Both the position numbers and the translations under genes were made by a program. A DNA stretch of 64,000 nucleotides from Mesostigma viride (lineage: Eukaryota; Streptophyta; Mesostigmatophyceae; Mesostigmatales; Mesostigmataceae), in the NCBI GenBank assembly GCA_009746045.1, contig RPFO01000156.1, positions 1,545,381 to 1,609,380 of the forward strand, read 5' to 3'. Of this stretch, positions 15,386 to 63,419 are shown one piece after another; within the stretch, counting starts at the first letter, position 1; each line of letters starts with the position of its first letter. The notes below the pieces were generated by a model. It worked only from the letters and a program-made list of their open reading frames with translations, had not been told where the DNA came from and did no database searches.

Positions 15386-18300
15386 TTAAGCAAAGGATAC
15401 GTACTTGCCACCGGCACCGGGGTATATCTCGCCCGTGTCGGCCTCCTCCCCATCCTCTTCTTCTGCTTCCGTAACGGGCTTGACCTCCTCCAGCAGTTTT
15501 TCCTCCGCCGAGCCTTCCGCCACCTCCTCCTCGTTCACGCTGTCATCGTCCGCGACAAAGTCGCCCGCGCCCTTGCCGCCGCCGAAGAGCGTGTCACCGT
15601 CCTCCCTGGCATTTTCCACCTGGTCGAGGGCGGGCAGGGTGCGCCAGGCAGCGTGCAAAGAAAAGTCCAGGCACTGAAATTTATACACAATAAGCCTGCA
15701 ACCAGCCAGCACGGTAGGCAGCATGCAAGCCCGCATCCAGGCATGGGCCCGTAGATACCAGCCGGCGCCATTCGCGAGGTCAGCGGCACTGGTGGCAAGC
15801 CCAGCGCCCCTCATGGCATTACTGCCAAGAGAAGCTGGATGCATATTAATTAATTAATTAGTTAATTAGAAACATAACTCCGCTGGATGCATATGAGCAT
15901 GTGATGAATGAACAGATCAAAAATTGCCCCCTCAGGGCGGCCCCGTGTCATGCACAACCAAGTGATTTCACGGCCTGAAGCGCATGCATGATCAAGGGAC
16001 GATGCCGAGCGCACTGCATGCCATATATATAACTCAATTGTTTATTTAGTAGTATATATTGTTGACAGTCGTGCCTTCGTACCTGCACCGGGTTGTCGTA
16101 GTATATCTGCTGCGAAATACCCCACTCCCTCAGCTTGGACCGCACGGCCGGGGGATCGAACCCGAACAGATGCACCGTCCTGCAAGCACACAGCGCCGCA
16201 TGGGCAGGTCGGATTTGTGTGTAAATAATGAACATAGCCTTGTAAGTATTATGACAAATATACTACTGTACACATACATTATGTAAAAGGTATTAAGTAG
16301 ATAATGTAAAAGTACTAAGTAGTTGTGATGGGCCTTTCGCTGCCCACCCTTCCTTCACAGCTGCATCACGAGCACGATACCCTGAGCGAAGTAACCACCC
16401 AAAAGGATGTGAAGTAGTCACCATGAGGTAATACATGGTATTGGGAACAGTATGACTCCCCCCCCCCTGCCAGCATCACAAGCACGATCCCCACACCAGC
16501 ATTAGACACGAACTCAAATACTCACTAGGTACTAAAATGCCATCACATCTCCCCCCCCCCCAACCACCACCACCACCTGCACAGCTGCGTCATCGAGCAT
16601 GATCCACACTGAAGAATTGCAGACACTACCTCAACCAGTCACTATGGACTACCATGCCATAACAGCCGTTCTGCTGAGCCTTCACCTGCACAGCTGCGAA
16701 CGAGCATGGAATTCCGGTGCCCCCACAAAAAATGGTGCCCACGCCGCATTCAAGTGCCCAAACAAGAATTGGAGGCAATGGTCACTATAGACTGATCTGA
16801 ATATAGAATGAATGAGCGCTGTGCTGCCCAACCCACCTGCACAGCTGCGTCATGAGCATGATCCCCACAAACGACGTCGGGATGTGCAGGTGCACCGCCG
16901 CATCCAACACGTCCCCATCGATCGTTGGCATGTTGGCGCCCGCGCCCCCTCTCTGGCCCGAAAGGCTTGCCCGCGCCGCGGCTGCCGCCGCCCCCCCTGC
17001 GCCCCCCTTGGAGCTGGATCCAACACCAGGATAACGCATGCGGGCGAGCAGGCCCGACTCCAGCATGCGGCGCAGGAGCGCCAGGTACAGCTGGACGACG
17101 CTCTCGAGGAAGTCGGAGCGGAGGACGACGTGCTGCTCCATGGGCAGGCGCTGCAGGCACCAAAAGGCACACAGTGCAGGAAGGATAATAGATAAGAATA
17201 GATAAGAATAGATAAGAATAGATAATTATAGATAATAATAGTTAATAATAGATAAGAATAGATAAGAAGCGGAGCATAAGGAGCAGAACGTAGGAAGCAG
17301 AGGAGCAGCAGCAGGGGGGGGGGCGCAGGAGATCATAAGCAGAAGGCAAGGAGCAGAACATAGAACAAGGCAGAGAATAAAAAAATAGAACATTTGGAGC
17401 AGGAACAAGAAGCAGAACATAAGGGGGGGGGGGGGGGGAAAGCGGTAATAGAACGTCTAGGGTATAAAATAGAATATCTAAGCAGGCTAGGTGTAAGGTC
17501 AGGCAAGGCCAGACCAGACGCTTCGCAGCCGTTGCGGGGCAGGATGTGCAGGCGGTCATGCAGGCGCGAAAGGGGAACAGATAGGAAGCCGATCAAGCGC
17601 AAAATACCAATGCATATCTAATAAATATAATAACTAATAAATCTTATATCGGGATCTAGATCTGTTTGTTTTCAAGCGCCGCCTGACCTCTTCAGACAAG
17701 CATCCAGATTCCCTCGGGTGGTAACCACTACGGAATGACTTCTGGCAAACCAACAAGACCTCAATTGACTACTGGCCAGCCAACAAGACCTCTATTGACT
17801 ACTGGCCAGCCAACGAGACCTCTATTGACTACTGGCCAGCCAACGAGACCTCTATTGACTACTGGCCAGCCAACGAGACCTCTATTGACTACTGGCCAAC
17901 CAACAAGACCTCGATTGACTACTGGCCAGCCAACGAGACCTCTATTGACTACTGGCCAGCCAACGAGACCTCTATTGACTACTGGCCAGCCAACAAACCT
18001 CTATTGACCACTGGCCAAAAAAAGGGCTTATTGTGCAGATAGTAATGACTACTGGCCTAACACTGCGTTTCAAAAAACGTGGTATCATTGCCTGGGTAGT
18101 AATGATTACTGGCCAACGCGATGCTGGCGACCGTGTGCCCGCCAGAGGTCCATTGATACGATCGCTCCATCACGCAGTCTAGTACGGGATAGTACACATA
18201 ATATTCATACGGCCGCGCAGATCTTTTCGTTATAACCCGCTGTACAGTGGACCACAGGCTGTGTAATGGAGCACGCGGGCGCAGAGGCAAAGGGCATGAA

Positions 18301-60900: not shown

Positions 60901-63419
60901 GCAGTAACACCCATCAAGATGGCAGCTTGCGCTGGTGTCACGACCGAGTGACTGCCTAGCTTTTTTGCCGCAAACGGGATGACTGTAGCGGCGGCTAGTA
61001 GAAAGTAACCAATGGTTGCCATGTAACCAGGAGTACAAAACAAAAAGTCGCGCTGCAGAACATGATCCCTCTGAAATTACAACGAAATCCCGTTGTAAAA
61101 CCGAATGGGAGTGCCCAACATGCTGCCTGTGCCTAGTAGGACGACGACGCAAATGATGTCCATTGCCTGTCACTGGACAATGAAGCTATTAAAGGAAAAG
61201 CACCTCGTTCCACCTCTCTCAAGTTCTCTTCACGAAGACCTCGTGGTCAGGCACGGTCATGAGCCGAGTGAATGCTAGGCTTTCAAGGGGGTCAACGTCC
61301 ACAGCTCTAGTGTAGAGAGTCGATGAGTGCCTGCACGGTGCCAATCCCAGTTCCCTGGTCTGCACGCACAAACACCTGAACGTCTGCATCCCTGCGTGCC
61401 CGCCTGAACACCTGCGCCCCTGCCTGCCCGCCTGCTCGCCTTGCCCTCCACGGGCACCACCAGGCTGTCACCCCACAAGTAAATCAACAAGCAGTGATGA
61501 ACCACCAGTAGCTATTTACATACGCACCGTGCCGGTAGTCGAGGCCAAACTTCCAGAGCTCCTTGCGCGCCAGGATGTCGAGCGCAAACCCAGGCGTGCC
61601 CTCAGGGAACACCTGCTGGTCAAGTGCGATGTGGCCCTGTGCATGGCAGGTGCAGCGGATGACAGCATGACACAGACAGCGGGTGACAGCATGAGCATGC
61701 ATGCGCGGGTGAGAGCGACCCCATAGAGGAGGGCTGGACCAGCGCGATGCGGCACTGTGATGCCACTGGTTCAAAGGAAGGGGCTGCCAGCATAACACTG
61801 ACAGTTGGGGCCGAAATGGGCACACAGGCGTGGGTGAGAGTGCGCATGGAAAGGGCTGCTCCATCGCTGTTAATGTGACATCGACTTCGGTGCTAGGTGG
61901 TGGATGCCAGCAGCCAGCTGGTGGGTTTGAGGCACCCGGGGCAAGCATGTGTGGGTGAGATACACATGTGTGGGCGAGCGGCCACTGCTGGTCTCCGAGT
62001 AATGCAGCCCTGATGTTTGTCATAGGGAGAGAATGCCAGCAGCAAGCACGTGGTTGGGGGCAACCACAACAACCATGCCTGCCATGACAGACAGAGTTGT
62101 TGCTGGGCGCGGTGATGTCATTCCACTGTCGCTGAAAGCCAGCGGACAAAACGGTACTGCCTGGGCTGACATCGTCACGTTGGGAGTCTATAGCAACCAG
62201 CACACCGTATAAAAAAGCCGTGTTCTCGCGTGCCATGACTGCAATTGAATTCGATTTCATTTAGTTTGATTTTATTGGCAAGCATGAAGCCATGCACAAA
62301 TCAGGCGACGCAAGGCTCACACGAGTACTACAAAAGCTGCCTCCTCAAAGCGACCCTGCTGCTTTCGCGTGAGGCACTCTAAGTACAAGAAGAACCGAGA
62401 GTACCACCATCAAGTCCAACAAAGAAACGGATAGTGGTCTATGCCTAACTAATAGCGACCCACCTGCAGCACGCGCGTGAGGCACTCTTTAAGTACAAGA
62501 AGAACCGACAGTACTACCATCAAGTCCGATAAAGAAACGAATAGTGGACTATGCCTAACTAAAAGTGACCTAACTAATAGTGACCCACCTGCAGCAAGCG
62601 CGTGAAGCATTGCAAGATCAACAGTACAAGCAAGCATGGACAAGTAACCCGCATTTGCGACCCACCTGCAGCACACACACGTGGGGCACCGCAAGGCTTT
62701 TGAACAGAACAAGGCTAGTACAAACAAGTTGACCCGAGTAAGCCACCAACCTGCAGCACGCGTGTGAAACACTCCTTCTGCCGTTCGGTGGGCGTCCCGA
62801 AGTGGACCGTGCGCGTGATGTCGGTCGTGCCGTCCTCATACTGGCCACCACTGTCCAGCAGGAACAGGTCATCGGCGTTCACATTGCGACAGGTGTCCTT
62901 CTGGGCGCGGTAGTGGATGACCTGGGGGCATGTGCGGCCGGATAAGGACAGGTGGCAAGGCAGGGGTGCGCCGAGGTAAACTGACTAGCATCCAAGGAAA
63001 CTTCCCCTGCGTCGTTAGAGCGAACATGAACACACACTACCGAGGAAAAACAGCCCAACACTCTTGGCAAAACAAGGAAAATACATTGTGTTTTGTGTAA
63101 AAACACAATGAGAAAAGAAAGCAAACGTGTGTCGAGTGGAATAATGTTTTTTTGGGCCAAAGGTATGCGCCGCATTACCATCCTGTTTCCAAATGTGAAG
63201 CATCCATTCCTTCATTCCTTGCATTGTCACCCTCTGGTTCTTTTCATAGTAGTATCATTTCCTTGCAACACGGATCGCTTGTCTTTTGCACGACGATTCC
63301 CTGGATTTTGGCATCCGTACCGCTCCGTTTGCCCCCGACCCAGCGATGGTGTCAAAGGAGGTGTCGAGGAAGCCACCCGCCGCCTCGCGGAAACTCTTGA
63401 GCTTCTCGCCAACGAGATA
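57903..63419 (-). CDS. Xaa-Pro aminopeptidase (aminopeptidase P, M24B), C-terminal seven exons
   Basis: Exons, 5' to 3': 63419-63321, 62921-62751, 61636-61528, 60359-60205, 59502-59410, 58818-58738, 57983-57903 (stop TAA 57905-57903). All introns are GT-AG and all phases agree (789 bases). The enzyme removes N-terminal residues preceding proline and needs two metal ions. All five metal ligands are visible: Asp in FLLDSGGQY, Asp in [15 protein letters not shown], His in [16 protein letters not shown], Glu in [12 protein letters not shown] and Glu in [24 protein letters not shown] and LTFCPIQ also match the eukaryotic cytosolic type. The creatinase-like N-terminal domains must lie right of 64000; the first acceptor (63421-63420) is the least certain boundary. 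The gene ends [18 protein letters not shown]. Confidence 0.95.
59853..60215 (-). repeat. Copies of an aminopeptidase P exon end and donor in the following intron
   Basis: The true exon end (60205) reads CCACCTCGATGCGGATGCC on the plus strand. Copies occur at about 59966 (CCACCTCGATGCGGATGCTG, continuing GGCTGTCCT) and 59861 (CCGATGTAGATGCC, continuing GGTCCTCATAGTAGCCGAG). The copied stretch includes about 45 bp of coding sequence. Confidence 0.85.
60420..61527. other. Long intron of the aminopeptidase P gene; no second gene recognised
   Basis: Contains a short inverted segment near 61077-61096 (TTACAACG-CGTTGTAA) and C-T repeats of CACCTGCGCC type near 61370-61440. No coding region is supported. 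Confidence 0.5.
62345..62780 (-). repeat. Five serial copies of an aminopeptidase P exon end and donor
   Basis: The true junction at 62751 (plus strand CCAACCTGCAGCACGCGTGT) is followed into the intron by copies at about 62659, 62582, 62457 and a decayed one at 62351, each with CCCACCTGCAGCA-GCG-type sequence. The copies at 62457 and 62351 also share about 100 bp of downstream sequence. In gene sense the first three copies read CTGCAG then GTGGGT, a better donor than the true GTTGGT. Confidence 0.92.

Follow-up and report, generated by a model that had tools for sequence, protein, structure and literature searches.

Tandem duplication involving splice-site sequence is described for vertebrate ATP2A1, for fission yeast and for the potato RdRp, and two fission yeast introns are made of non-identical tandem repeats (PMC4974935, PMC3629103, PMC3443670). 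A Drosophila study describes novel intron positions that arise through sliding or tandem duplication; proto-splice sites are present in the regional duplications, and the new introns contain premature stop codons, with a suggested role for nonsense-mediated mRNA decay (PMC2891723). The present analysis concerns copies of exon-intron junctions that lie inside existing introns of Mesostigma viride (Streptophyta). It starts from a stretch of 64,000 nucleotides of contig RPFO01000156.1 (positions 1,545,381 to 1,609,380; hereafter the window) in the 440-Mb genome, where two genes, both on the minus strand, carry such copies: a sialyltransferase-like gene, EGF-GT29, and the gene of an aminopeptidase P.

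Minisatellite or tandem-repeat turnover in introns is characterized by head-to-tail units, variable copy number and decay. The same traits are seen here, also in the interiors of these introns, but the units described below span the junction, so that every copy brings an exon end together with a donor. Stwintrons and recursive splice sites likewise have extra donors inside an intron, whereas the source of the present copies is the adjacent exon. The likeness to ATP2A1, fission yeast and potato RdRp is tandem duplication with splice-site sequence; however, the duplicates of Mesostigma lie inside the intron beside one of its ends, occur in many introns and are serial and decayed, and the two intron ends share no repeat. 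The near-intron pairs of Drosophila are also regional duplications, but their positions are new, whereas the present copies lie within modelled introns (PMC2891723). Searches of one open-licence library, within the terms used, returned no title or abstract start describing serial junction copies inside existing introns. What is distinctive here is that a sizeable share of the tested introns carry such serial copies.

The last 40 nucleotides of each exon were compared with the exon's own intron and with 200 dinucleotide shuffles. Donor-side copies exceeded all 200 shuffles in 6 of the 18 window introns (G8-9, G9-10, G10-11, G11-12, A2-3 and A4-5) and acceptor-side copies did so in one (G6-7), with weaker acceptor signals by the shuffle test in A4-5 (p=0.01) and G12-13 (p=0.035). 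A sequence-only reading of the window had claimed extra junction copies in both genes, in seven donor introns and one acceptor intron. Self-alignment against shuffled introns places the copies above chance; six of the donor introns and the acceptor intron stand, and the seventh donor intron, probably G6-7 if seven were counted, is not significant on its exon part alone. The coordinates given by that reading were correct, and the alignments agree with its one to four copies per intron and its spacing of 36 to 235 bp. The genes and mapped copies, in window positions, are the following.

15385..26636, minus strand: EGF-GT29 gene (sialyltransferase-like), 13 exons and 12 introns (rebuilt model and Pfam)
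57900..63419 (lower end approximate), minus strand: C-terminal seven exons of aminopeptidase P (Pfam, PDB alignment)
20237-20271 and 20079-20105, minus strand: two donor-junction copies in intron G8-9 (shuffle test and alignment)
19428..19541, minus strand: 36-bp tandem array of the donor junction in intron G9-10, three mapped copies (shuffles, alignment, Tandem Repeats Finder, TRF)
18379..18602, minus strand: 99-bp tandem array of the donor junction in intron G10-11, three mapped copies (shuffles, alignment, TRF)
16339..16708, minus strand: four donor-junction copies in intron G11-12, about 110 bp apart (shuffles, alignment)
62454..62674, minus strand: three mapped donor-junction copies in intron A2-3 (shuffles, alignment; TRF gives a 110-bp array at 62366-62570)
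59943..60002, minus strand: one donor-junction copy in intron A4-5, 235 bp into the intron (shuffles, alignment)
21072..21101, minus strand: 30-nt copy of the acceptor and exon 7 start in intron G6-7 (shuffles, alignment), with a second, shorter copy at 21430-21445
22355..22373, minus strand: 19-nt donor-like copy in intron G6-7, score 28 (exon part alone not significant, p=0.285)

The description of these copies as progressively decayed held in part. They are decayed, but identity does not fall steadily with distance among the eight arrays with at least two mapped copies inside and outside the window, and in G10-11 and A2-3 it rises. All three A2-3 copies read CAG|GTGGGT, as against CAG|GTTGGT at the exon's own donor. 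Moreover, at codon third positions and at the donor, the A2-3 copies (62454-62751) agree with each other but not with the exon, as if older exon states had been kept.

The observation is real and recurs, both on the same contig outside the window and on other contigs. In the 200-kb flanks, where the remainder of aminopeptidase P and DNAAF5 were modelled, 5 of 26 donors and 1 of 27 acceptors exceeded all shuffles; DNAAF5 exons d8, d10 and d13 and the d19 donor were excluded because of unclear boundaries. When 40 introns with both ends defined were pooled (a set that leaves out DNAAF5 donors d7, d9, d12 and d21, which entered the flank test), 10 donors and 2 acceptors reached a score of at least 26. 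At this threshold the controls gave 0/40 on the reverse strand, 1/1560 for exon ends against other introns and 0/34 for segments 40-80 nt inside the exon. An introner-type dispersed element is marked by the same sequence in many introns; here exon ends match other introns in just one of the 1560 pairs, and by this measure the copies look private to each intron. Fifteen GT29-paralog loci on 15 other contigs (L023-L037), picked unseen for short open frames among the matches listed, gave 9/37 donors and 4/39 acceptors at the same score (5/23 and 4/23 in L023-L030, or 6/23 and 6/23 by shuffles; 4/14 and 0/16 in L031-L037). The clear cases are donor copies 126 and 226 bp on in L027, acceptor copies in L025 and L026, and four serial donor copies in L031; weak arrays occur also at G_ex6, p7, d6 and d11.

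Over all loci, including a helicase and a RecQ gene of the flanks, acceptor copies are about threefold rarer than donor copies (6/89 against 19/87 at a score of at least 26, Fisher p=0.005), and counting those above all 200 shuffles gives 8/94 acceptors and 22/91 donors (p=0.005). The difference has p=0.025 in the three hand-modelled genes only and p=0.14 in the GT29 paralogs alone, where donors were tallied as 9/38, a denominator one too high. In these totals the boundaries of L023-L037 and of the helicase and RecQ genes were set by script, so that some last-exon 'donors' may not be real, and the copies at L024@2396 and L025@3171 end short of the chosen donor. Too little sequence left two donors of L031-L037 and one donor and one acceptor of the helicase and RecQ genes without a row; RecQ open reading frame (ORF) 7796-8102 was excluded, and L022, a single long GT29 exon, was left out of the counts. 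The genome is repeat-rich, which would suit an assembly artefact, but most copies are identical neither to the exon nor to one another, and they occur on several contigs with different periods; misassembly is thus a barely credible source of the copies.

A clean duplicated unit lies at aminopeptidase P exon p1, outside the window, as a 68-bp head-to-tail unit made of 59 exon and 9 intron nucleotides, with 60 of 68 positions identical. Junction-spanning arrays are also reported by TRF, which is blind to exons, in G9-10, in G10-11 and, as a 120-bp array, at L031@3506; in L027 the match covers 41 nt of exon and 40 nt of intron. These cases establish a tandem duplication across the border for several arrays, which consist of head-to-tail copies of one unit, and suggest it for the others; no such arrangement is seen at L031@2406. 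Intron expansion by tandem duplication across the junction, as the sequence-only reading had proposed, is therefore borne out by the p1 unit and the junction-spanning arrays. A need for AG|GT at the junction finds no support, as arrays also occur at CGG|GT, ACG|GT, CCA|GT, GAT|GT and AAG|GC.

The same reading had connected the copies with a proposed route of intron gain. Tandem duplication of an AGGT-bearing exon segment is indeed the kind of mutation reported to create introns (PMC4974935, PMC3629103), and the copies might be relics of intron birth. However, donor and acceptor neighbourhoods gave 9.05 of 30 within the same intron against 9.37 for different introns, and 0/40 introns reached 15. 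With this absence of donor-acceptor similarity and with arrays at junctions other than AGGT, such an origin is very unlikely, even if old traces of similarity between intron ends could have faded.

The copies are probably relics of tandem duplications, with units of roughly 30-250 bp, that crossed an exon-intron border by chance. The introns concerned carry duplications at many places. A duplication within an exon would alter the protein and be removed by selection, and one across the 5' splice site would leave a second exon end and donor inside the intron. The latter event would be nearly neutral and lengthen the intron by one unit, because the mRNA is unchanged if the exon-proximal donor stays in use. 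The copy would then drift, the original exon end being held by coding selection. Exon-derived copies would stay recognisable somewhat longer than intron-derived ones because the exon is frozen, while both sides of an intron duplicate drift, and the combination of exon end and donor would thus be what the eye picks out. Acceptor copies would be rarer because a copied acceptor sits upstream of the real one and could be taken first. Taken as a whole, the cause is most likely ordinary and the pattern true and recurrent, a view of intron lengthening and not a new kind of element.

Duplication away from the junctions is indeed common. Among 3200 complex intron 40-mers (overlapping windows, simple sequence excluded), 730 have a downstream copy, at rates per 50-bp bin of 11-20% in the first 250 bp, 0-9% at 250-550 bp and 42% beyond 600 bp. 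By offset from the donor, copies were found for 0/27 segments at -80, 2/32 at -60, 10/35 at -40, 12/36 at -20 and 2/35 at 0, while on the intron side the share was 11-23% at +60 to +260 and 0-8% at +280 to +400. Duplication was also simulated with uniform placement, unchanging exons and introns left to drift, using 400 introns for each rate. An interior rate of 0.148 went with 0.155 for donors and 0.193 for acceptors, and one of 0.188 with 0.260 and 0.253, respectively; the observed donor rate of 0.22 fits these values and the observed acceptor rate of 0.07 lies below them. An earlier, noisier run (120 introns per rate) gave 0.21 for donors, 0.17 for acceptors and 0.14 for interiors at one rate. 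A donor hot spot is not needed, because interiors are duplicated too and the neutral simulation yields the observed donor rate. The simulation demonstrates sufficiency and is no proof, because the rate was chosen to match, and it leaves the sharpness of the peak unaccounted for. Of the two readings, chance duplication with selection on splicing and coding as the filter is preferred, with moderate confidence, over a hot spot at donors.

The copied donors themselves were followed in 32 mapped copies, a set that excludes the weak arrays G_ex6, p7, d6 and d11 as well as L034, and for which L024, L025 and L030 were entered and yielded no mapped copy. The donor dinucleotide is retained in 27 of the 32, where 0.61 is expected from ungapped exon identity, although this retention is biased upward because the copy query includes the first 8 intron bases. 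The copies that have lost it include copies 3 and 4 of G11-12, one copy of d9 and one of d16; several copies read AG|GT. Copy spacing is indifferent to reading frame (multiples of three in 10/32), unlike what functional alternative donors would show, and an in-frame stop precedes each of the 32 copies, with the phase inferred by codon score. Given these stops, use of a copy donor would mostly yield a message with an early stop. In DNAAF5 the intron at exon d16 (locus L005) is a GC-AG intron, and its three donor copies read GCAAGT, ACAAGT and GCAAGT.

An array of alternative or decoy donors, as the sequence-only reading had it, is thus consistent with the retained dinucleotides, but the spacing and the stops fit sites that would go unused. 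The copies could instead be kept as working parts, either as decoy or alternative donors that bind U1 or as AG|GT recursive splice points that tune the splicing of long introns. Besides the retention, the stops ahead of the copies would agree with such a role, as would the A2-3 copies, whose GTGGGT, unlike the exon's GTTGGT, is among the two most frequent hexamers of the 44 modelled donors. Against it stand the query bias in the retention, the frame-indifferent spacing and the loss of the dinucleotide from some copies, so that a working role for the copies is improbable.

Several observations weigh against chance duplication as a full account. The donor/acceptor gap is absent from L023-L030 by either count, and the helicase and RecQ genes gave 0/10 donors and 0/10 acceptors at a score of 26, one RecQ donor with a score of 23 exceeding its shuffles; the claim of a genome-wide process is therefore upheld for the flanks and other contigs but does not extend to all genes. 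The observed peak is sharper than the simulated one, with 0/27, 12/36 and 2/35 against about 0.08-0.12, 0.17-0.28 and 0.14-0.18 at offsets -80, -20 and 0, and the simulated donor-to-interior ratio was 1.0-1.4 (1.5 at one rate of the smaller run). At L031@2406 (plus strand), a perfect 22/22 junction copy (-18 to +4) lies 88 bp downstream between unrelated flanks, which a decaying 88-bp unit would not produce. In the arrays of the window's contig, the nearest copy is preceded by a stop in 11/11 cases when read in the exon frame, against 13/22 for the two other frames (p=0.015, post hoc), an excess that hints at selection; over the full set of 44 introns, first stops do not come clearly earlier than in the other frames (p=0.12). 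Between copies, identity in 11 arrays is 0.83 for exon-derived parts, 0.72 for intron-derived parts and about 0.64 for unrelated sequence. The higher identity of the exon parts is not predicted by neutrality alone, although it allows no conclusion on selection because the copies were found by their exon part.

Some of these data would be expected if the 5' splice junction were a mutational hot spot, where breaks close to the donor, linked to transcription or R-loops, are mended by short duplications and introns accrete from their 5' end. The excess of donors over acceptors, the peak at -40 to -20 and the short, sharply bounded copy at L031@2406 speak for it. In an extended form, 5' junctions would be preferred by a short-duplication process linked to transcription or splicing, introns would grow from their donors, decoy donors would be tolerated only behind an in-frame stop, and the copies would be dated fossils of exon ends. 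However, interior duplication is frequent, the overall donor rate lies within the neutral range, and acceptor arrays exist at several loci (L024, L025, L026, L027 and G6-7). The hot spot is a possible but rather unlikely explanation, and its extended form deserves the same reserve.

The value of the copies is as a natural experiment in how introns grow and in which additional splice sites cells can ignore. With about a fifth of the tested donors affected (19/87), intron lengthening is caught in the act, and one can measure how often junction-spanning duplications arise, how large they are and how well they are tolerated. The donor/acceptor difference, if it holds, makes it possible to ask in nature whether it is an added donor downstream or an added acceptor upstream that cells can ignore. 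For gene predictors, such genomes contain many plausible false donors in real exon context.

The gene models were built by proposing ORFs through ab initio exon finding, scanning 78 of the 150 listed segments with Pfam and setting exons by hand; over the 264 kb around the window the signal of the exon finding was no better than in reversed controls, and it was used only for proposing ORFs. The two window genes match Glyco_transf_29, EGF domains, Peptidase_M24 and Peptidase_M24_C, and the peptidase aligns with PDB chain 3ctz (Xaa-Pro aminopeptidase 1) at 2.7e-78 across exon joins, its N-terminal exons lying outside the window in L002-L003. Exons 7 and 8 of EGF-GT29 join out of phase beside a run of ten G in exon 7, which may reflect a sequence error or another boundary. 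The genome holds at least 152 GT29-domain matches, counted per exon and hence representing fewer genes, still a large sialyltransferase-like family. It also has 33 matches to the light-harvesting family, which scores in one cyanobacterial control as well; together with the DNAAF5-type ciliary gene they point to a flagellate, photosynthetic eukaryote. At about position 2269 of L034 (plus strand), a minisatellite of about 21 bp (by eye) lies at the script-chosen donor, and its units carry GGGTAAGT, giving a dense donor-like run.

Other features of the window include a 4.6-kb array of GAATGG-type hexamers at 10744-15373, which has full strand asymmetry (GC skew 1.0 in 12001-14000) and terminates directly behind the EGF-GT29 gene. 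Intron 2 of that gene contains about 1 kb of G- or purine-rich arrays (GTGG, GAGT, GA) at 24461-25491. Three long ORFs on the minus strand, with translations judged by eye, resemble retroelements: one at 28500-37600 is like a Ty3-type gag-pol element, one at 40166-43228 has GIY-YIG and reverse-transcriptase features, and one at 50011-53800 is reverse-transcriptase-like, with a related-looking fragment at L008:2582-3157.

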